From NCBI RefSeq assembly GCF_006575665.1, contig NZ_CP041253.1, positions 2,393,001-2,457,000 on the forward strand: a stretch of 64,000 nt of DNA, given 5' to 3'. Within the stretch, counting starts at the first letter, position 1; the number at the start of each line of letters is the position of its first letter. The notes under the pieces are model-generated. The model saw nothing but the letters and a program-made list of their open reading frames with translations, did no database searches and had not been told where the DNA came from. Shown here piece by piece: positions 24,742 through 37,616 of the stretch. The position numbers and the translations under genes were made by a program. Origin of the DNA: Echinicola soli (GTDB lineage: Bacteria > Bacteroidota > Bacteroidia > Cytophagales > Cyclobacteriaceae).

Positions 24742-26140
24742 TATCAATGTCGTTTAGTTAAGGATTTTTTTTAATTTTTGGGTAAGAAAAGGGAGCGTAG
24801 TTTTTTTGAAAGAAATCTGACAACGAGAAAGTCCTTTTCCTTTTCGGAGGACTTTTTAAAACTATTAAAAAACAATATAGAAAATGGATTGACACGAGAC
24901 AGGTTCCGTACGACTAACAAAGCATTTGTTCGCCAGCGGTGTTTGGGGTTTACTGATCTTATCTACTTTATGTTAGGTTTAGGTAAATCCAGTGTTCAGC
25001 AAGAGCTGGATGATTTTTTTTCGGATAAATTGGTCAGCTGTTCCAAAGGAGCTTTCAGTCAGCAGCGATCCAAACTAAACCCCAAGGTGTTTACCTGGCT
25101 GAATGGAAAACAATGTTCTTTTTATTATAATAAAGCCAGCCATGTCCGTAGATGGAAAGGTTTTCGGCTTATAGGTATTGACGGCAGTACTCTGCAGCTT
25201 CCTTACAGTAAAGAACTGGCAAAAGGTTTTGGCCAGTTCGAAACCCGGACTGAAAACGGCAGAAAAGTAGTCCTGGCCCGTGTTTCCCAAGCCTACGATG
25301 TACTCAATCAAATCAGCATAGATGCCAAAATCAAGCATTACAGGACAAGTGAACTTTCTCTCTGTGAAAGTCACCTTCCCTGTCTGGGGCAGGGAGACCT
25401 GCTTATAATGGATCGGGCCTATGCGGCCTTTTGGCTCATGTCCTCATTGGTTCAGCAACAAAAATCTTTTGTCATCAGGGTAAAGGCAAACAGGTGGAAA
25501 CAGGCAAAGGCATTTTTAGCATCTACCCAAAAACAGCAGTTAATAGAGGTCTCCCCTTCCAAAGAGGCCATATACAGGTGTAAGGAAAGGAATATTTCTA
25601 CTGAGGCACTCAAATTAAGACTGGTACGGGTACCGATTGAATCAGGAGAAGACCATATATTGGTAACCAACCTGGTTGACCATAAAAAGTACCCTGTCAA
25701 GGAAATCCGTGAGCTTTATAGGAAAAGATGGCCTGTTGAAGAGTCGTTCAAACTACTGAAAACCAGGGCGGAACTTGAAAACCTGAGCGGAAAGACGGCC
25801 AGGGCCGTTCTCCAAGATTTTAACAGCATCATTCTCAGGGCCAACTTGAGCAACATCCTCAGTAAAACACTTACCAAAAAAGGGGGTGACTACTGTAACA
25901 AAAAACGGAAAAATACTTATCAGATCAACAGAACCCAGGCTTATCGTAAAACCAAACCTATACTTGATCAACTGAACAAAGGGATCGACAAAATCATCGG
26001 AAAAATATCCGATTACGCTTTCAAACTATTGCTTCAGCTTGAAATAGTGCGGCCCAACAGGTCAGTTCCAAGAATAAAAAGGTATAGCGCTAGACCCAGC
26101 AATTTTATAACTTATAATCCTTAACTAAACGACATTGATA
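24742..26140 (+). mobile_element. IS4-family insertion sequence, apparently complete
   Basis: A ~1.4-kb element with 25-bp perfect terminal inverted repeats (24742-24766 and 26116-26140, starting TATCAATGTCG) around one intact transposase. The inverted similarity continues imperfectly for about 11 bases outwards (AACCTGGA vs TTCAGGTT), so the true ends may be near 24731 and 26151. No clear target duplication could be fixed for that reason. It sits between the permease gene and ispE, interrupting no recognisable gene. Confidence 0.85.
24778..26124 (+). CDS. IS4-family DDE transposase
   Basis: A 448-residue transposase with the catalytic triad in IGIDGST (D135), LLIMDRAYA (D212) and the IS4 signature Y314-x2-R317-x3-E321-x6-K328 (in YRKRWPVEESFKLLK). 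The C-terminal region is basic and ends in RYSARPSNFITYNP. The start is a TTG at 24778, the only initiation codon upstream of the conserved N-terminal part; translation of transposases from weak starts is common. The frame is intact, so the element may still be active. No second copy occurs in the window. Confidence 0.92.
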   Translation: MGKKRERSFFERNLTTRKSFSFSEDFLKLLKNNIENGLTRDRFRTTNKAFVRQRCLGFTDLIYFMLGLGKSSVQQELDDFFSDKLVSCSKGAFSQQRSKLNPKVFTWLNGKQCSFYYNKASHVRRWKGFRLIGIDGSTLQLPYSKELAKGFGQFETRTENGRKVVLARVSQAYDVLNQISIDAKIKHYRTSELSLCESHLPCLGQGDLLIMDRAYAAFWLMSSLVQQQKSFVIRVKANRWKQAKAFLASTQKQQLIEVSPSKEAIYRCKERNISTEALKLRLVRVPIESGEDHILVTNLVDHKKYPVKEIRELYRKRWPVEESFKLLKTRAELENLSGKTARAVLQDFNSIILRANLSNILSKTLTKKGGDYCNKKRKNTYQINRTQAYRKTKPILDQLNKGIDKIIGKISDYAFKLLLQLEIVRPNRSVPRIKRYSARPSNFITYNP

Positions 26141-27011: not shown

Positions 27012-27508
27012 TTTTAAGATTTTAAAGCCTTCGGAGGTAAAGATAATAGGGAATGGAGAAAAAGTGTAGGTTAAACAGCACCAATTTCGTGTTTAGTAAA
27101 ACCGTATGGTTGTTGAAAATAAATGACTCAAAACAGTTAGAAAGGGAGTATTAATTTTTGCGTTTTTTGCAAAGTGTCGCTATTGTGTCGGTGTTTAGTC
27201 TAAAAATATCCTTAAATATTGGTTTCACTGATCTATTTTCAGGTTTTTTTTAAGAAAAAATTAATTTTTTTGGAAATCAGAAGAAAATTTCGAAAATTGA
27301 AAAAATGTTTTTCTAATAAAACATAAAAAAGCGTATTGCATAAAAAAGCTACCTGAAACTGAAGTGTTTTGTTAGGTATGCAATAGTTTAATTTTTATTT
27401 CATTTTAAAAAAAGAAATAAAATATTGTAAGTCTCAAAATAGGGTTTTACTTTTGTTAAGCAATTAGAAAAGATCAAAGATAAGATACCACTAAACACAC
27501 ATAAAAGC
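27012..27508. other. AT-rich intergenic region with the ilv promoter
   Basis: No gene. Very AT-rich (poly-A/T tracts around 27240-27430), as expected for a strong promoter or curved DNA between divergent genes. It carries the predicted ilv promoter at 27425-27455 and the start of the leader transcript. Confidence 0.6.
27425..27455 (+). promoter_or_regulatory. predicted promoter of the ilv/leu operon
   Basis: TTG at 27425-27427 and TACTTTTG at 27448-27455, 20 bases apart, match the Bacteroidota housekeeping consensus TTG-N19-ish-TAnnTTTG. Transcription would begin about 27460, some 48 bases before the leader peptide. Confidence 0.6.
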
Positions 27509-27568
27509 ATGTTCAGAATAGTCAGCGTCATTAACCTTATTGTCATTCTCATTTATAACTGTAAGTGA
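27509..27568 (+). CDS. branched-chain amino-acid leader peptide (attenuator)
   Basis: A 19-codon ORF, MFRIVSVINLIVILIYNCK, in which 10 residues are Ile, Val or Leu, the end products of the operon that follows. Composition, position (after the promoter, 35 bases before a terminator) and overlap with a competing hairpin are those of a classical transcription-attenuation leader such as ilvL. When charged Ile/Val/Leu tRNAs are scarce, the ribosome should stall at codons 4-15 and let the antiterminator form. The peptide itself probably has no function. I am confident of the architecture; its activity in a Bacteroidota host is not shown by sequence alone. Confidence 0.85.
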   Translation: MFRIVSVINLIVILIYNCK

Positions 27569-27614
27569 GGCGCTAGACTATTGTAAGACATCCATAAAGC
27601 AATAAAGTGCCTCA
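27566..27614 (+). promoter_or_regulatory. predicted antiterminator structure of the ilv attenuator
   Basis: TGAGGCGCT (27566-27574), which includes the leader stop codon, can pair over 9 positions (one G-U) with AGTGCCTCA (27606-27614), the 5' arm of the terminator. A ribosome at the stop codon would mask the first strand and favour termination; a ribosome stalled upstream would leave it free. Confidence 0.75.
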
Positions 27615-27635
27615 TATCGTGAGGCACTTTTTTTT
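27604..27635 (+). terminator. attenuator terminator upstream of ilvD
   Basis: An 11-bp perfect stem (AAAGTGCCTCA/TGAGGCACTTT), a TATCG loop and a run of eight T's, located 31 bases before ilvD. A strong intrinsic terminator in front of the operon makes sense only as a regulated attenuator. Confidence 0.9.
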
Positions 27636-27665: not shown

Positions 27666-29348
27666 ATGAGCGATTTGAAGAAATATAGTTGGGAAATCAG
27701 TGATAATGAAGAAAATCCAGCGGCAATGGCCATGCTATATGCGACTGGAATCACTGATAAAAAGATGAAGCAGCCTTTTGTAGGTGTGGCAAGCTGTGGG
27801 TATGAAAGTAACCCATGTAACATGCACCTTAACAGTTTTGCGGAGGACATTAAGGTCTCTACAAACCAAGCGGATCTTTCAGGCTTTATTTTTAATACCA
27901 TTGGTATTTCCGATGGCCAGTCCATGGGGACTTCAGGGATGCGGTATAGTCTTCCTTCCAGGGAGGTGATTGCTGATTCCATAGAGTCATTCATTTTGGG
28001 GCATAGCTTTGATGGAGTAGTGACCATTCCAGGATGTGATAAGAACATGCCGGGTGTGGTGATGGGAATGCTTCGTGTAAATCGTCCAGGGATCATGGTC
28101 TTTGGAGGAACGATCAGATCTGGAAACTACAAGGGGGAGAAACTGAATATTGTTTCGGCTTTTGAAGCATATGGCAAGCGGATCAATGGGCAGATTTCTG
28201 ATGAGGATTACATGGGGGTAATCAAAAATGCCTGTCCAGGTGCCGGCGCATGTGGCGGGATGTACACTGCAAATACAATGTCTTCGGCCATCGAAGCTAT
28301 GGGATTATCGCTGCCTTTCAGTTCTTCCTATCCAGCTACTTCTAAAGAAAAGCGAGAGGAATGCAAAAACATCGGTAAATATATCAAGCAGCTGTTGGCA
28401 CTGGATATCAAACCAAAGGATATCATCACCAAAAAGAGCTTGGAAAATGCCGTACGTGTTACCGTGGCACTTGGTGGTAGTACCAATGCGGCCCTTCACA
28501 TCTTGGCGATTGCCAGAACAGCAGGAATTGATTTTACCCTCGAGGACTTTAAGCGAATCAATGCCGAGACTCCTGTGCTGGGTGATTTTAAGCCAAGTGG
28601 GAAATTCATGATGGAAGACCTTTATGAAATGGGCGGCTTACCAGCTTTCTTGAAATACTTCTTAAATGAAGGATTGCTTCATGGTGATTGCCTTACGGTA
28701 ACGGGCAAAACCATGGCCGAGAACTTAGCTGACATAGAGCCAGTAAAAGCCTCCAAAGACAGTGTTATCCATCCTATAGAGGATCCAATCAAAGAATCTG
28801 GTCACTTGTGTGTGCTTCATGGTAACTTGGCACCCGAAGGGGCCGTGGCCAAAATTTCCGGAAAAGAAGGGAAGTCCTTCACTGGAACAGCCAAGGTGTT
28901 TGACGATGAGCCTTCTGCCAACGCGGCCATGAAAAACAAGGAGATCCAAAAAGGGGATGTGGTAGTCATCCGTTATGTGGGACCAAAAGGTGGGCCGGGA
29001 ATGCCGGAAATGCTGAAGCCTACTTCCATTATCATTGGTGCGGGGCTGGGCTCGGACGTGGCACTGATCACTGACGGTCGATTTTCTGGCGGTACGCATG
29101 GATTTGTGGTAGGACACGTCACACCGGAGGCCTATCTGGGGGGACCGATCGGATTGATCGAGGATGGCGATAAGATCACCATCGACGCGGAGACATTGGA
29201 AATCAATGTGGACGTGAGCGAAGAGGCGTTTGCCGAACGGAAGAAAAACTGGAAAAACAAAGACTTGAGCCATCTCCAAGGAACGTTAAAGAAATATGTC
29301 CAATTGGTGTCTACAGCGTCTGAGGGTTGTGTTACTGACAAACAGTGA
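27666..29348 (+). CDS. ilvD: dihydroxy-acid dehydratase
   Basis: Converts 2,3-dihydroxy-isovalerate or -methylvalerate to the 2-oxo acids, the shared third step of valine and isoleucine synthesis. 560 residues, iron-sulphur enzyme. Cluster and active-site motifs: the ANPCNMHL-like block with SNPCNMHLN (about 50-58), [16 protein letters not shown] (about 118-133), [19 protein letters not shown] (about 189-207), the ADGRFSGG-like [11 protein letters not shown] (about 466-476), and GHVTPEA. It is the first gene of the operon, directly after the attenuator, and is followed 53 bases later by ilvB. Confidence 0.97.
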
Positions 29349-29401: not shown

Positions 29402-31096
29402 ATGAAAGATTCGAGAATCAGAGGAGCTGAGATCGTGATCAAATCCCTGGTAGCTGAAAATTGTGATTACATTTTTGGTTATCCTGGAGGTGCCATCATG
29501 CCAGTATATGATGCACTCTATGATTACGCGGACCAAATCAAACATGTACTGACAAGACATGAGCAAGGAGCCATCCATGCCGCACAAGGGTATGCACGAG
29601 TCTCCGGTAAAGTCGGCGTCTGCATGGCTACTTCAGGGCCTGGAGCTACCAACCTAATCACAGGGATAGCTGATGCCCAGATTGATAGCACTCCTCTGGT
29701 CTGCATCACTGGCCAAGTGGCTTCACAGCTGTTAGGTACAGATGCTTTCCAGGAAACCGATGTAGTGGGATTCTCTATGCCGGGGACCAAGTGGAATATT
29801 CAGGTGAGGAAGGCGGAGGATATTGCCCCGGCCATTGCGAAAGGTTTTCATATAGCACGTTCAGGAAGGCCGGGACCGGTACTGATAGATATTACTAAGG
29901 ATGCACAAAATGAGCTGTTCGAATTTAATTATGTGCCTTGTCTGGGAATCAGGTCTTACCGACCTTATCCCAAAGTAAAGGACAGTGAAATCGCCGCAGC
30001 TGCTGAAGTCATCAATGCCGCCAAGAAACCTTACTTGCTTTTTGGGCAAGGAGTTGTAATTGGTAAGGCTGAGGAAGAACTCAAGGCATTTTTGGATAAA
30101 ACCGGGATTCCCGCAGCTTGTACCCTTCTAGGTTCAGGTGCACTTACAGAAGACCATCCCCAATATGTCGGCAAGCTAGGAATGCACGGTAACTATGCTC
30201 CCAATTTGCTGACCAACCAATGTGATGTACTGATCGCGGTGGGGATGCGTTTTGATGATCGGGTAACCGGTGATCTGAAGCGGTATGCCAAGCAGGCAAA
30301 GGTGGTCCACCTGGAGCTGGACAATGCAGAGATCAATAAGAATGTAAAGTGCGAAGTATCCGTGCTGGGAGATTGTAAAGAAAGCCTTCCCTTGCTTACC
30401 GAGAAGGTGAACCAAAATGCCCATGCAGCTTGGCTGAGCGAATTCAGGACGCTAGAGGAGAAAGAAAAGAGCGCTGTAGTTTCCCTTGATCTATTGCCTA
30501 CCAAGACCGGACTTACCATGGGAGAGGTGATCCGCTATATCAACGATTACAAGAAAGACGATGCAATATTGGTGACTGACGTAGGGCAGCATCAGATGAT
30601 TGCCTGGAGGTACTTTAAATTTAAGACCACAAGAACACAGGTGACCTCTGGTGGTTTGGGTACCATGGGCTTTAGTCTTCCAGCTGCACTGGGAGCGCAG
30701 CTTGCAGATGTAAACCGGCAGGTAATCTGTGTGGTGGGCGATGGAGGTATCCAGATGACCATTCAGGAACTAGGGACCATCATGCAGACCAAAGCACCGG
30801 TAAAGGTAGTCTTGCTGAACAATGACTTCCTCGGAATGGTACGACAGTGGCAACAGTTGTTCTTTGATAAGCGTTATTCATTCACTGAGCTGGATAATCC
30901 TGATTTTATCAAAATCGCTGAAGCCTATAATATGAAGGCCACCAAAGTGACCGAAAGGGATAACCTGAAGGATACGGTAGCAGAGATGATGGTTCATGAA
31001 GGCCCTTATTTTCTGGAAGTAGTGGTAGAGAAAGAAGACAACGTATTCCCGATGATCCCTACTGGATGTTCTGTGGAAGAAGTAAGGTTAAGCTGA
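29402..31096 (+). CDS. ilvB: acetolactate synthase large (catalytic) subunit
   Basis: Thiamine-diphosphate enzyme that joins two pyruvates to acetolactate or pyruvate and 2-oxobutyrate to acetohydroxybutyrate. 564 residues. Signatures: FGYPGGAIMPVYDAL with the catalytic Glu in RHEQGAIHAAQGYAR (about 46-60), SGPGATNLITGIADA, and the ThDP-binding GDGG...NN motif (VVGDGGIQMTIQELGTI ... NNDFLGMVRQWQ, about 443-481). It pairs with the ilvN regulatory subunit 66 bases downstream, and is the usual site of valine feedback inhibition. Confidence 0.97.
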   Translation: MKDSRIRGAEIVIKSLVAENCDYIFGYPGGAIMPVYDALYDYADQIKHVLTRHEQGAIHAAQGYARVSGKVGVCMATSGPGATNLITGIADAQIDSTPLVCITGQVASQLLGTDAFQETDVVGFSMPGTKWNIQVRKAEDIAPAIAKGFHIARSGRPGPVLIDITKDAQNELFEFNYVPCLGIRSYRPYPKVKDSEIAAAAEVINAAKKPYLLFGQGVVIGKAEEELKAFLDKTGIPAACTLLGSGALTEDHPQYVGKLGMHGNYAPNLLTNQCDVLIAVGMRFDDRVTGDLKRYAKQAKVVHLELDNAEINKNVKCEVSVLGDCKESLPLLTEKVNQNAHAAWLSEFRTLEEKEKSAVVSLDLLPTKTGLTMGEVIRYINDYKKDDAILVTDVGQHQMIAWRYFKFKTTRTQVTSGGLGTMGFSLPAALGAQLADVNRQVICVVGDGGIQMTIQELGTIMQTKAPVKVVLLNNDFLGMVRQWQQLFFDKRYSFTELDNPDFIKIAEAYNMKATKVTERDNLKDTVAEMMVHEGPYFLEVVVEKEDNVFPMIPTGCSVEEVRLS

Positions 31097-31162: not shown

Positions 31163-31666
31163 ATGAATCGATATACTGTATCCCTTTTTACCGAAAATTT
31201 CATTGGTATCCTGAATAGAGTTACCTTGATCTTTACAAGAAGGGGAGTGAATATAGATGCCCTTACTGCTTCAGAAAGTAAGGAAGATGGTGTGCACAGG
31301 ATTACTATTGAAGTGACCACTACGGAAGATCAGGTCATTCAGATCGTCAAGCAAACCGAGAAGATCATTGATGTGATCAAGTCGTTTTATTATAAGGATG
31401 ACGAAGTGGTGTACCAGGAAATTGCCCTGTACAAAATACCGATCAGCAGTCTTGACCCGGGTTTGGAGAAAGTGATCAGGCAGTACAATGCCCGCATCAT
31501 ATCCGCCGAGAAAGAATTTGTGGTGATCGAAATGACCGGCCATAAAGAAGACACCAAGGCCCTACTGGAGATTTTAAAGGATTTCAACATCCTCGAATTT
31601 GCCAGATCAGGTAGGGTGGCCGTGGCCAAACCAATGGGAACAATTGAACAATATTTGAATAATTAA
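31163..31666 (+). CDS. ilvN: acetolactate synthase small (regulatory) subunit
   Basis: A 167-residue regulatory partner of IlvB. The N-terminal ACT domain (about 3-75) starts YTVSLFTENFIGILNRVTLIFTR... and continues RGVNIDALTASES, the valine-binding part in other species. The C-terminal domain (about 85-160) includes EFVVIEMTGHKED and LEFARSGRVAVAK. Length is normal for the short type. It follows ilvB and precedes ilvC by 11 bases. A direct repeat GATACTA GATACTA ends 3 bases before its start codon. Confidence 0.95.
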   Translation: MNRYTVSLFTENFIGILNRVTLIFTRRGVNIDALTASESKEDGVHRITIEVTTTEDQVIQIVKQTEKIIDVIKSFYYKDDEVVYQEIALYKIPISSLDPGLEKVIRQYNARIISAEKEFVVIEMTGHKEDTKALLEILKDFNILEFARSGRVAVAKPMGTIEQYLNN

Positions 31667-31677
31667 AATTAGAAACA

Positions 31678-32721
31678 ATGAAACTGAAATTCGGAACAGT
31701 TGAAGAAGATGTAGTAACAAGAGAAGAATTCCCTCTTGAGAAAGCCAGAGAAGTGCTTAAAGACGAAGTGATTGCCGTACTCGGTTATGGTGTGCAAGGT
31801 CCCGGCCAAGCCCTAAACCTTAAAGACAACGGCTTTAATGTCATCGTCGGCCAACGTAAAAACTCCAAGACCTGGGACAAGGCTGTAGCCGATGGCTGGG
31901 TTCCTGGCGAAACGCTTTTTGAGCTGGAAGAGGCTTGTGAAAAAGGTACTATCCTTCAATTCTTACTTTCTGATGCAGGTCAAATTGCATTGTGGCCAAC
32001 AGTTAAGAAGCACCTTGCTCCTGGAAAAGCCCTTTACTTTTCCCATGGTTTTGGAGTGACGTACAATGATCAAACAGGAATCGTGCCGCCAGAAGACGTA
32101 GACGTGATCTTGGTCGCTCCTAAAGGGTCTGGTACTTCCTTGAGAAGAATGTTTGTAGAAGGTAGAGGGTTGAACTCTTCTTTTGCAATCTATCAGGATG
32201 CCACTGGCAAAGCAAGAGAAAGAGTCATTGCACTTGGTATCGGCGTAGGTTCAGGATATTTGTTCGAAACCGACTTCTACAGAGAGGTGACTTCTGACCT
32301 TACTGGTGAAAGAGGTACCTTGATGGGTGCTATCCAGGGAATCTTTGCTGCCCAGTACGAAGTGTTGAGAGATAATGGTCACTCTCCATCTGAAGCATTT
32401 AACGAGACAGTGGAAGAGCTGACACAAAGCTTGATGCCACTCGTGGCTGAAAACGGCATGGACTGGATGTATGCCAACTGCTCTACGACTGCCCAAAGAG
32501 GTGCCCTTGATTGGTGGAAGCCTTTTAGAGATGCTTCCAAGCCAGTATTTGAGCAACTGTACAAAAGTGTAAAAGATGGCAAAGAAGCAGCTAAATCCAT
32601 TGAATCAAACAGTAAAGCAGACTACAGAGAGAAGTTAGAAGTAGAGCTGAAAGAGCTAAGAGAGTCTGAAATGTGGAAGGCAGGTGCTACTGTTCGTAAG
32701 CTGAGACCAGAGAATAACTAA
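31678..32721 (+). CDS. ilvC: ketol-acid reductoisomerase
   Basis: NADPH-dependent isomeroreductase, the second common step of Val/Ile synthesis. 347 residues. The Rossmann motif is VLGYGVQGPGQALNL (about 34-48), followed by IVGQRKNSKTWDKA, the NADPH-phosphate contact region. FSHGFGV and VAPKGSGTSLR form the active site, and the knotted C-terminal domain carries SDLTGERGTLMG and YANCSTTAQRGALDW. The spacer after it (163 bases) contains two hairpins before leuC. Confidence 0.97.
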   Translation: MKLKFGTVEEDVVTREEFPLEKAREVLKDEVIAVLGYGVQGPGQALNLKDNGFNVIVGQRKNSKTWDKAVADGWVPGETLFELEEACEKGTILQFLLSDAGQIALWPTVKKHLAPGKALYFSHGFGVTYNDQTGIVPPEDVDVILVAPKGSGTSLRRMFVEGRGLNSSFAIYQDATGKARERVIALGIGVGSGYLFETDFYREVTSDLTGERGTLMGAIQGIFAAQYEVLRDNGHSPSEAFNETVEELTQSLMPLVAENGMDWMYANCSTTAQRGALDWWKPFRDASKPVFEQLYKSVKDGKEAAKSIESNSKADYREKLEVELKELRESEMWKAGATVRKLRPENN

Positions 32722-32859: not shown

Positions 32860-32884
32860 TTTATGACGATTGACAACAGAAGCG

Positions 32885-34282
32885 ATGGAAAAGAAAACAT
32901 TATTTGACAAAGTATGGGACGAACACGTAGTCAAAACCGTTCCGGGTGGGCCTGATGTGTTTTTCATAGATAAGCATTTTATCCATGAAGTCACCAGTCC
33001 TGTGGCATTCCTTAACCTTGAAAACCGAGGTAACAATGTGCTCTTTCCCGAGCGCACGGTAGCCACTCCTGATCACAACGTACCGACCATCGATCAGGAC
33101 AAAACCATTAAAGATAAGCTTTCCCGCATGCAGGTGGAAAAGCTGCGCGAAAATTGTAGCAAATACGGAATTGAACTGCACGACTTGGGGACAGACCACC
33201 ATGGTATCGTGCACGTTATTGGCCCGGAATTGGGCATTACCCAGCCCGGTATGACCATTGTTTGTGGTGATAGCCATACTTCTACACACGGTGCTTTTGG
33301 GGCGATAGCCTTCGGAATCGGTACCAGTGAGGTGGAAATGGTATTTGCTTCGCAATGTATCATGCAGTCCAAGCCTAAACGTATGCGGATTACCGTAAAC
33401 GGTGAGCCTGGAAAGGGAGTGACCTCTAAAGATATTATCCTTTACATCATCTCGAAAATCTCGGCCAGTGGCGGTACCGGATATTTTATCGAATATGCAG
33501 GTTCGGCCATTCAAAGCCTCAGCATGGAAGCAAGGATGACCATCTGTAACATGAGTATCGAGATGGGAGCCAGAGGTGGATTGATCGCACCCGATGAGGT
33601 GACTTTTGATTACCTAAAAGGAAAAGAACATGCCCCGAAAGGTGAAGATTGGGATAAAGCAGTAGCATACTGGAAATCCCTGAAAACCGACGAGGGTGCT
33701 GAATTTGATTTGGAATATACCTATGATGCCGAGGACATCGAGCCGATGATTACTTACGGCACCAATCCTGGTATGGGCATCAAGATTAAAGATATCATTC
33801 CTACCACTGAAGGTATGGAAGGAAGCAACAAAAAAACCTACCTGAAGTCATTGGATTACATGGGCTTTCAGCCTGGTGAGCCTATCAAAGGTAAAAAGAT
33901 TGATTATGTCTTCGTGGGAAGCTGTACCAATGGCCGAATCGAGGATATCCGTGCAGTAGCGGAATTTGTGAAAGGAAAGAAAAAGGCGGAGAATATCACT
34001 GCTTGGATCGTGCCCGGTTCTAGAGAAGTGGAAAACCAAGCCATTGAAGAAGGGCTGGTAACTATCCTTGAAGAAGCAGGTTTCAAATTGCGACAGCCGG
34101 GCTGTTCTGCCTGTCTGGCCATGAACGACGATAAGATTCCTGCAGGTAAATACGCTGTGTCTACCTCCAATAGGAATTTTGAAGGCCGTCAGGGACCAGG
34201 AGCAAGGACCTTACTGGCGTCACCATTGACAGTAGCGGCTGTGGCCATTACCGGTGAAGTGGCAGATCCTCGTGAAGTTTAA
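32885..34282 (+). CDS. leuC: 3-isopropylmalate/(R)-2-methylmalate dehydratase large subunit
   Basis: Aconitase-family [4Fe-4S] subunit that isomerises 2- to 3-isopropylmalate and, in the citramalate route, citramalate to methylmalate. 465 residues from the ATG at 32885, chosen over a TTG at 32870. Cluster Cys residues lie in FVGSCTNGR (about 342-350) and [11 protein letters not shown] (about 402-412), and [15 protein letters not shown] is the aconitase signature (about 125-139). It is followed 18 bases later by leuD. Confidence 0.97.
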
Positions 34283-34300: not shown

Positions 34301-34894
34301 ATGGCTTACGATAAGTTCAATTTATTAAAAAGTACTGTGGTTCCGTTGCCTACTGAGAATGTGGATACGGACCAAATCATCCCTGCAAGGTTTCTGAAAG
34401 CTACCGAAAGGAAAGGTTTCGGAGAAGGCTTGTTCAGGGATTGGAGATATGACAGCGAAGGAAATCCGAAAGCTGACTTTGTGCTGAATGACCCTACTTA
34501 CTCCGGTAAAGTATTGGTAGCTGGTAAAAATTTCGGGTCAGGCTCCAGCCGCGAGCACGCTGCTTGGGCGATTTATGATTATGGATTTAGATGTGTAGTG
34601 TCCAGCTTCTTTGCAGATATCTTTAAAAACAACGCCCTGAACGTTGGTATTCTGCCGGTGACAATTACTCCGGAATTTTTGGATGAGATTTTCGCAGAAG
34701 TGGAGAAAGATCCTGCTACGGAAGTGGAAGTGGATATCGCCAAACAGACTATCACCCTTCTTAGTACAGGAAGTTCAGAATCTTTTGATATCAACTCTTA
34801 CAAGAAACAAAACATGCAAAATGGTTTTGATGATATCGACTACTTGCTGAACATGAAAGATCAGATCGTTGAATTCGAAACAACGAGAAAATAA
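34301..34894 (+). CDS. leuD: 3-isopropylmalate/(R)-2-methylmalate dehydratase small subunit
   Basis: A 197-residue swivelling domain partner of LeuC. Signatures: VPLPTENVDTDQIIPARFLK (about 13-32), VLVAGKNFGSGSSREHAAWAIYDYGF (about 72-97), and FFADIFKNNALNVGILPV. Length and order are normal. It is followed by a strong 15-bp hairpin and then the CimA-like gene. Confidence 0.97.
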   Translation: MAYDKFNLLKSTVVPLPTENVDTDQIIPARFLKATERKGFGEGLFRDWRYDSEGNPKADFVLNDPTYSGKVLVAGKNFGSGSSREHAAWAIYDYGFRCVVSSFFADIFKNNALNVGILPVTITPEFLDEIFAEVEKDPATEVEVDIAKQTITLLSTGSSESFDINSYKKQNMQNGFDDIDYLLNMKDQIVEFETTRK

Positions 34895-34910: not shown

Positions 34911-34947
34911 TATTCAAGCCATGGTGACCTATACCATGGCTTGAATA
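34911..34947 (+). promoter_or_regulatory. 15-bp perfect hairpin between leuD and the cimA-like gene
   Basis: Arms 34911-34925 and 34933-34947 (containing AAGCCATGGT/ACCATGGCTT) pair perfectly around a 7-base loop. No T run follows, so it is more likely an mRNA-stability, processing or protein-binding site than a terminator. Confidence 0.65.
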
Positions 34948-34996
34948 CCTTATTCGTCTAGCTACTTGATACTCAATACTAGATACTAATATAATC

Positions 34997-36580
34997 ATGC
35001 GTCTTGATAAGAAAATAGAAATCATGGATACCACACTGAGGGATGGTGAACAGACCTCAGGGGTGTCCTTTCTGCCTTCTGAAAAACTCCAGATAGCTAA
35101 ATTGCTGCTGGAGGAGTTGAAGGTGGACAGGATCGAAGTGGCATCCGCAAGGGTTTCTGAGGGAGAGCTTGAGGGGGTAAAGAAAATTACGCATTGGGCT
35201 GCCGAAAAAGGATACTTGGACAAGGTAGAAGTCTTGGGGTTTGTGGATACACCGGCTTCGGTGGATTGGCTGACAGAAGCAGGAGCCAAAGTCCTTAACC
35301 TCCTAACCAAAGGTTCCCTTAACCACCTCACCCACCAGCTTAAGAAAACACCTGAACAACATTTTTCCGATATCCAAAAGTGCATTGCTTATGCTGACGA
35401 AAAGGATATTGCTGTGAATGTCTACCTGGAAGATTGGAGTAGCGGAATGCGCCACTCCAGGGATTATACCTTAAAGCTGATTGCTTTTTTAGCAGGACAA
35501 AAGGTGAAAAGGATCATGTTGCCGGATACTTTGGGGATTTTGAAGCCTTCCGAAGTAGCGGAATTTGTGGGGGTGGTAAGCAGTTCTTTTCCTGATGTGC
35601 ACCTTGATTTTCATGCACACAATGACTATGACCTATCTGTGGCCAATGTCATGGAGGCCGTTGCCAATGGGGCTTCTGGCGTCCATACCACTGTAAATGG
35701 CCTTGGAGAGCGAGCAGGTAATGCTCCATTAGAGAGCATTGTGGCCACTATTACTGATTTTACAGGAGTCAAACTGAATGTCCAAGAAAATAAAATCTAC
35801 CGTATCAGTAAATTGGTGGAGCAGTTTTCAGGGCTTCATATTCCTTCCAATAAGCCAGTGGTGGGAGAAAATGTCTTCACCCAGACAGCTGGTATCCATG
35901 CTGATGGGGATAATAAGAAAAATCTTTATTTCAACGATCTTTTACCTGAGCGATTTGGCCGTACCAGGAAATATGCCTTGGGCAAAACTTCGGGCAAAGC
36001 CAATATCCTCAAAAACCTGATGGAGCTGGGCATCGAACTGGAACCGGAAGAGTTGAGCAAGGTGACCCAAAAGATCATTGAGCTGGGAGATCGCAAGGAG
36101 CGCGTGACTACTGAGGACCTTCCTTATATCATTTCCGATGTGCTTCAGAATAACTCCATTAAGAAGGACATCAGCATCGAAGGGTATCACATGACCCATT
36201 CCAAGGGCCTCAAGCCTACCGTGCAGCTGAAGCTGAAATTTAATGACCAATTTTATGAGGCACATGCCTCAGGAAATGGCCAGTTTGATTCTTTTATGCT
36301 GGCATTGCACAAGATTTATAAATCACTCAATAAGAAGCTTCCCAAACTGACCGATTTCAGTGTGAGTATTCCTCCTGGGGGTAAAACGGATGCTTTTGTG
36401 GAAACCGTCATCACCTGGGAATACGGAAGGATTATCAAGACTAAAGGGCTGGACAGCGACCAGACCGTGGCTGCCATGATGGCCACCGAAAAAATGCTCA
36501 ATATCATCGAACAAATCAATACAGGTAAACCAGAAAATAAAAATTTGTATGGAAATGAATATAGCGCTGCTACCAGGTGA
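34997..36580 (+). CDS. cimA: citramalate synthase-like enzyme (CimA/LeuA family) with C-terminal allosteric domain
   Basis: A 527-residue DRE-TIM aldolase that condenses acetyl-CoA with a 2-oxo acid. Barrel motifs: [15 protein letters not shown] (11-25), [10 protein letters not shown] (48-57), [14 protein letters not shown] and [13 protein letters not shown]; residues about 390-515 are the LeuA regulatory domain with IPPGGKTDA. Standard LeuA has EAGFP where this has VASARVS, and the whole N-terminal half resembles Leptospira interrogans CimA. The three residues reported to make that enzyme pyruvate-specific (Leu81, Leu104, Tyr144) fall on L80, L103 and Y143 here. So citramalate from pyruvate is the likely product, though a 2-isopropylmalate role cannot be excluded because no other leuA is in the window. 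It overlaps leuB by 32 bases. Confidence 0.82.
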
Positions 36581-37616
36581 TGGTATCGGCCCTGAAGTGA
36601 TCGAACAAGCGGTAAAAGTGGTCAAAGCCGTAGGAAAGAAATTTGGCCATACCATTACTTTTAAAGAAGCCGTAGTGGGGGCGGCAGCCATCGATGCCAC
36701 TGGCAATCCTTATCCTGATGAGACTCATGAGGTATGTCTACAGGCGGACGCAGTATTGTTCGGTGCCATTGGAGATCCCAAATACGACAATGACCCCAAG
36801 GCAAAAGTAAGACCTGAACAAGGGCTGCTGGCCATGAGAAAGAAACTGGGGCTTTTTTCCAACGTACGACCTACATTCACTTTCCCTTCATTGATCCATA
36901 AGTCGCCTTTGAAGAAAGAGCGAATCGAAGGTACTGATTTTGTGTTCTTGAGAGAGTTGACAGGTGGTATTTACTTTGGTGAGCCTAGAGGCCGAAATGA
37001 GCAAGGTACCAAGGCTTTTGATACCAATGTGTACACCAAAGAAGAAATCACGCGATTGGCACGAATGGGCTTTGAGTTTGCCCAGAAGAGGAGAAAATTA
37101 TTGACCTGTGTGGATAAAGCCAACGTATTGGCCACTTCCCGTCTGTGGAGAGAAACCGTACAGGAGCTGGAACCAGAATATCCAGATGTAAAAGTGGAGT
37201 ATGAGTTTGTGGATGCCGTAGCCATGCGACTCATCCAGTGGCCAAAAGCCTATGATGTGTTGATTACCGAAAACCTCTTTGGTGATATCCTTACAGATGA
37301 GGCCAGTGTGATCAGTGGATCCATGGGGCTGATGCCTTCTGCTTCCTTGGGAAGCGATGTGAAGCTGTTTGAACCTATCCATGGTTCTTATCCCCAGGCT
37401 GCCGGAAAAGACATTGCCAATCCATTGGCGACAGTGCTTTCTGCTGCGATGATGTTTGAGTATGCTTTTGACTTGAAAGACGAAGCCAAGGCTATTTCTG
37501 ACGTAGTTAACCTTTCACTGGCCGAAGGTGTGGTGACTGAAGATATCGCCGAAGAGAGCAAACCAAGCAAAACCTCTGAAGTAGGAGATTGGTTGGCTGA
37601 GCAGATTTTGAAGTAA
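36549..37616 (+). CDS. leuB: 3-isopropylmalate dehydrogenase (also citramalate-route dehydrogenase)
   Basis: A 355-residue NAD-dependent decarboxylating dehydrogenase. Signatures: [12 protein letters not shown] (about 6-17), [21 protein letters not shown] (substrate loop), [15 protein letters not shown] (about 137-151), [45 protein letters not shown], and [18 protein letters not shown]. It is the last gene of the operon. Translation may start at 36549 or at an ATG 6 bases later; both overlap the upstream gene, implying coupling. A strong terminator follows 31 bases after the stop. Confidence 0.97.

Follow-up and report, generated by a model that had tools for sequence, protein, structure and literature searches.

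Does the short open reading frame (ORF) upstream of ilvD in Echinicola soli belong to a classical attenuator, in which the supply of Ile, Val and Leu decides whether a joint ilv/leu operon is transcribed? A sequence-only reading had proposed this for the window, i.e., the 64,000-nt (64-kb) stretch of DNA analysed here, which comes from a genome assembled as one contig of 5,550,304 bases. Enteric attenuators (the trp, his, leu, and ilv leaders) are ribosome-mediated and built from four RNA segments, numbered 1-4, that form 1:2, 2:3, and 3:4 pairings. We concluded from sequence and comparison that the locus is a predicted ribosome-mediated transcription attenuator of this textbook kind, with a probability of about 0.9.

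Leader, terminator and downstream operon

The ORF (27509-27568, plus strand) encodes the leader peptide MFRIVSVINLIVILIYNCK and ends in a stop codon; ten of its 19 residues are Ile, Val or Leu (5 Ile, 3 Val, and 2 Leu), exactly as the sequence-only reading had stated. The stop codon is followed after 35 nt by a hairpin (27604-27630, loop of 3 nt) and a run of eight T's (27628-27635, plus strand), the first of which can pair in the hairpin too. The spacing and the T's agree with the earlier description, whereas the stem, given there as 11 bp, was counted at 12 pairs. Also as claimed, the ORF directly precedes ilvD, which starts at 27666, 97 nt from the leader stop codon, with the terminator in between. 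Folding of the 179-nt leader gave a z-score of -4.36, and none of 200 shuffled sequences was equally stable. Bacteroidota-type promoters follow the consensus TTTG / TAnnTTTG. On the plus strand, ATTG at 27424-27427, inside ten invariant columns (AAATATTGTA) of 16 aligned upstream regions, is a possible -33 element, and TACTTTTG at 27448-27455, with similar boxes across the 16 regions, is a possible -7 element; transcription would start near 27461. Further upstream, a 448-aa ORF at 24778-26124 looks transposase-like by eye and adjoins a gene on the other strand that was named ispE-like, also by eye.

The structural genes downstream all lie on the plus strand. Most of them scored above the cut-off of an NCBIfam model: ilvD, the first structural gene (27666-29348, TIGR00110), ilvB for the acetolactate synthase large subunit (29402-31096, TIGR00118), ilvC (31678-32721, TIGR00465), leuC (32870-34282, TIGR00170), leuD (34301-34894, TIGR00171), and leuB (36549-37616, TIGR00169). 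The gene at 31163-31666 (167 aa) matched no NCBIfam model under the strict limit used (1e-40); by size and position it is probably ilvN, encoding the small subunit of acetolactate synthase. The gene at 34997-36580 (527 aa) is isopropylmalate/citramalate synthase-like (leuA-like), with NF042433 (citramalate synthase) as its best NCBIfam match at 673.9 bits, below the cut-off of 950; its product may be an isopropylmalate synthase, a citramalate synthase, or both. We infer that the leader controls the whole 10-kb operon. Between leuD and the leuA-like gene there is a 16-bp inverted repeat with a loop of 5 (34911-34947), and near it a sigma-70-like promoter match (34966-34995) from a scan whose promoter and terminator matches were no commoner than in shuffled DNA. 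The operon could be divided at this point.

Alternative pairings and folding model

The proposal of a classical attenuator gained support from mutually exclusive pairings, which are absent from the earlier description. All segments are on the plus strand. The outer part of segment 1, AUAGUCAGCGUC (27518-27529, codons 4-7), is complementary to 27569-27581, and its inner part, CUCAUUUAU (27548-27556, codons 14-16), pairs in the predicted fold with the leader end and segment 2. Segment 2, AGUGAGGCGCUA (27564-27575), contains the leader stop codon and forms the 5' arm of the antiterminator; it overlaps 27569-27581, with which the outer portion of segment 1 pairs in the predicted fold. Segment 3, AAGUGCCUCAU (27605-27615), is common to the antiterminator and the terminator, and segment 4, GUGAGGCACUU (27619-27629), is the 3' arm of the terminator hairpin.

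Conservation of the pairings was scored in 60 aligned leaders; since these rows are related and the first of them supplied the structure, the figures are biased in its favour. Pairing 2:3 was formed in 99.3% of 540 cells (slid controls at most 48.0%), 3:4 in 99.0% of 600 (at most 60.2%), and 1:2 in 87.9% of 720 (at most 54.5%), the last divided into 90.0% for the first six bases of the outer part and 85.8% for the six pairs of the inner part. Cells changed on both sides numbered 5 for 3:4 against a shuffle mean of 0.3, and 1 for 2:3 against 0.0, segments 2 and 3 being near-invariant within the aligned leaders. The corresponding count for 1:2 was 15 against a mean of 6.8 (sd 2.1), with one slid version giving 18; two of the five measures for 1:2, namely both-side-changed pairs (3) and pair types (13), were no better than in shuffles. 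In three Echinicola a synonymous GTC to GTT change in the leader is accompanied by a G to A change in its partner, and between Cytophagales genera segments 2, 3, and 4 change together. The alternative pairings are present at this locus and conserved, as judged by comparison of the aligned leaders.

The 2:3 duplex of the window reaches -16.9 kcal/mol, and none of 40 shuffles was as good. In 65 of 85 distinct leaders the duplex outperformed its shuffles (fraction at most 0.025 of 40); the other 20 comprise 13 from family f34 (another class), four from family f19 (same class), and three from Cytophagales. Since only 1/14 f34 leaders and 2/6 f19 leaders passed, the case outside Cytophagales is one of leader plus terminator, with weak evidence for an antiterminator.

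The switch was modelled by masking the RNA up to the front edge of the ribosome, with the polymerase placed just beyond segment 3. For the window, the modelled probability of 2:3 was 0.82-0.89 with the A site at codons 2-15, 0.61 at codon 16, 0.17 at codon 17, and 0 at every position from codon 18 up to the stop. The ten Ile/Val/Leu codons all fall within codons 4-15, and the switch lies between codons 15 and 18. Without a ribosome, 1:2 formed with a modelled probability of 0.86. When segment 4 was included, the terminator took 0.96-0.98 at equilibrium in every ribosome state, and the choice must therefore be kinetic. A looser measure, in which any upstream partner of segment 3 counts, was applied to 85 leaders. 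Its mean was 0.79 with the ribosome on Ile/Val/Leu codons, 0.15 with it at the stop, and 0.67 in its absence; the last value suggests that protection by a 1:2 hairpin is not a general feature of these leaders. With limits set at ≥0.5 on Ile/Val/Leu codons and ≤0.2 at the stop, 58 of the 85 leaders lay within both. The window (0.87 on Ile/Val/Leu codons, 0.23 at the stop, and 0.27 without a ribosome) fell narrowly outside the second limit.

Leaders upstream of ilvD in relatives

We searched 175 regions upstream of ilvD with a detector for an ORF of 8-45 codons that has at least six Ile/Val/Leu in ten codons and a stop near a hairpin with a T tract; a miss means that nothing was found upstream of that particular ilvD. 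The regions are those of the window, 29 relatives (IlvD matched in 30 of 39 genomes, its own included), 73 named loci, and 72 genomes of a phylum sample (IlvD matches at E ≤ 1e-150 in 73 of 178 genomes, its own included). The named loci come from one scan and cover close relatives only, mostly Algoriphagus, and five of them (L030, L031, L032, L056, and L099) duplicate other loci in the set. The detector was positive in 114/175 real regions, as against 1/175 reverse complements and 8/875 dinucleotide shuffles. All 11 Echinicola carry the Ile/Val/Leu ORF and the terminator before ilvD. Elsewhere in the family, seven of 12 other genera have the pattern and five are without it; it was further found in 70/73 named loci and in 2/7 from the rest of the order, a count that includes L026; the match in L026, a 41-residue ORF without 2:3 pairing, is probably spurious and is kept in all counts. 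The named loci that failed are L079, with only 142 nt of upstream sequence, and L094 and L095, with a score of 5. In the phylum sample 24 of 72 regions were positive and 48 were without the pattern; the positives fall in f1 (2/4), f19 (7/15), and f34 (15/18), with 0/35 elsewhere.

Leader sequences diverge widely, for example MYKVVILLSVIILIGF in Algoriphagus, MLSTVISLVIIRVIGITYRPGKALC in f34, and MQISIIITSVVVVNVIHTSASGML in f19. The sequence-only reading expected an Ile/Val/Leu-rich ORF with drifting codons in relatives and would have been refuted by the lack of such an ORF; in the genus and in close genera the ORF recurred and its codons drifted. The segment 2 motif was searched in four genomes (G000, the genome of the window, with G003, G002, and G011). 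At 0-1 mismatch it occurred solely at ilvD, in three Echinicola; at 2 mismatches there were a few extra copies in G000, G003, and G011, and the backward control likewise gave a few. The ilvD copy of G011 is itself at 2 mismatches.

Pooled over 11 Echinicola leaders, pS was 0.273 versus a pN of 0.082 (pN/pS 0.30), and at the ten Ile/Val/Leu positions the sole residue of another kind is a Phe in place of Leu10, in one species. RNA pairing constrains the leader bases as well, beside coding. We concluded from this comparison that purifying selection acts on the ORF; the pN/pS ratio gives indirect support for translation of the leader. In 57 leaders GTC, CTC, and ATT make up 78, 37, and 87% of the Val, Leu, and Ile codons, respectively, versus 19, 13, and 44% in ilvD of the same loci; with the first GTC of each leader removed, the GTC share of Val drops to 53% of 43. 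This bias is due in part to pairing constraints and shared descent. The leaders may in addition be tuned by under-used codons.

Proposed mechanism, alternatives and known systems

In the proposed mechanism, the polymerase would start near 27461 and a ribosome would translate the leader. A shortage of charged Ile-, Val-, or Leu-tRNA would stall the ribosome on one of the Ile/Val/Leu codons (within codons 4-15), where it would cover segment 1. Segment 2 would then be free to pair with segment 3 while segment 4 has yet to be synthesized, and transcription would read through from ilvD to leuB. When Ile, Val, and Leu are all plentiful, the ribosome would reach the stop codon and cover segment 2, so that 3:4 would form and transcription would end after about 175 nt. 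In the window species an untranslated leader is predicted to terminate as well, because segment 1 would hold segment 2.

A terminator with an alternative pairing would serve other systems equally, and the locus might be a premature terminator under an RNA-binding protein, a metabolite riboswitch, or a T-box, with the ORF incidental. We consider this improbable: a search of Rfam, including T-boxes, riboswitches, and proteobacterial leaders, gave 0 matches at the gathering threshold in the window and weak matches only at the locus (the best low-threshold leader match, Phe_leader, scored 19.5 bits versus 55), the ORF shows purifying selection, and it is the Ile/Val/Leu content, not the sequence, that is kept between genera. 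The leader might instead act on translation; it could, for instance, be an upstream ORF by which ribosomes are either delivered to ilvD or kept away from it. Short leader genes close to structural genes have been proposed to aid reinitiation, the peak for Bacteroidetes lying at 11-14 bp (PMC4833913). The 97 nt from the leader stop to ilvD, with a terminator between, are far beyond that distance and make such a role very improbable. Hydrophobic short ORFs do arise in AT-rich DNA: among 1588 ORFs of 8-45 codons with distinct stops in the 64-kb window (850 on the plus and 738 on the minus strand), 24 have at least seven Ile/Val/Leu in ten codons and three have eight. ORFs whose stop lies shortly before a terminator-like hairpin had 51 distinct stops on the plus strand and 23 on the minus strand; the leader is the only one of them to score 8, with runners-up of 6 and 7, respectively. 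That such an ORF stands beside an unrelated terminator by chance is hardly credible, given the joint pattern in 114/175 real regions versus 8/875 shuffles and the conserved pairing.

As a predicted ribosome-mediated attenuator, the locus resembles the enteric ones in its amino-acid-rich leader peptide, its predicted 1:2, 2:3, and 3:4 pairings, and a terminator before the first structural gene. It differs in belonging to another phylum, in having no obvious Shine-Dalgarno site, and in heading a joint ilvD-B-N-C-leuC-D-A-B operon; no sequence similarity is to be expected. The comparative attenuator predictions of Vitreschak (2004) and Lopatovskaya (2010) reportedly mention Bacteroidetes/Chlorobi among the predicted carriers. 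The sequence-only reading had called a clear case in this phylum less well described; such leaders are indeed thinly documented, yet there is precedent in Flavobacterium psychrophilum of the same phylum, for which "strong clues" of leader-peptide attenuation before amino-acid biosynthesis operons were described in 2021, in a passage on attenuation that does not name an ilv leader (PMC9723704). For Bacteroides thetaiotaomicron, short ORFs have been noted that resemble attenuating leader peptides (PMC7366714). Corynebacterium ilvBNC is likewise described as a branched-chain amino-acid operon controlled by an attenuator or upstream ORF, but it belongs to Actinobacteria, has another gene order, and has been studied experimentally (PMC11857589, PMC10272879). 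No ilv attenuator of Cytophagales was among the matches listed from the open-licence literature.

A putative sister leader, MKQFNTQYWWWQMELLTGKNS, with a terminator of -18.6 kcal/mol lies upstream of trpE in the same genome (G000, L186 1285-1350). A Trp-Trp-Trp leader precedes trpE in all six Echinicola genomes tested (the others being L181-L185), with terminators of -18.6 to -19.4 kcal/mol. On the match strand of 3.4-3.6 kb loci from six Echinicola, no conserved His-, Thr/Ile-, or Phe-rich leader was found near hisG, the homoserine dehydrogenase gene, or pheA.

With regard to the tRNAs, none of the 150 scored among 267 genome tRNA candidates was tRNA-Ile(GAU). A tandem array of three tRNA-like copies, whose anticodon arms are rebuilt and which ARAGORN cannot assign, lies between two normal tRNA-Val(TAC) genes (L209 1500-2065, i.e., G000:C1 about 519500-520480, minus strand). 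The altered arm occurs four times in G000 and twice in G003 (1-2 mismatches); the remaining 37 of the 39 searched genomes lack it.

The predicted attenuator of the joint ilv/leu operon is convincing. It is new as a member and ordinary in mechanism, and is of moderate interest: a specialist would find it neat and not startling, given a textbook mechanism and the precedent in the phylum. The leader class is absent from Rfam, and its members follow one plan while differing greatly in sequence. Attenuation of branched-chain operons might be old, widespread, and largely uncatalogued in Bacteroidota, reaching from Cytophagales to f19 and f34, a tentative view with the odds somewhat against it. To our knowledge, Bacteroidota are mostly without Shine-Dalgarno sites, and attenuation that is old and widespread would imply close transcription-translation coupling in such bacteria. 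If the attenuator reading is true, a 10-kb ilv/leu operon in Cytophagales would be linked to tRNA charging, and transcription-translation coupling in Bacteroidota could be tested cleanly at this locus.
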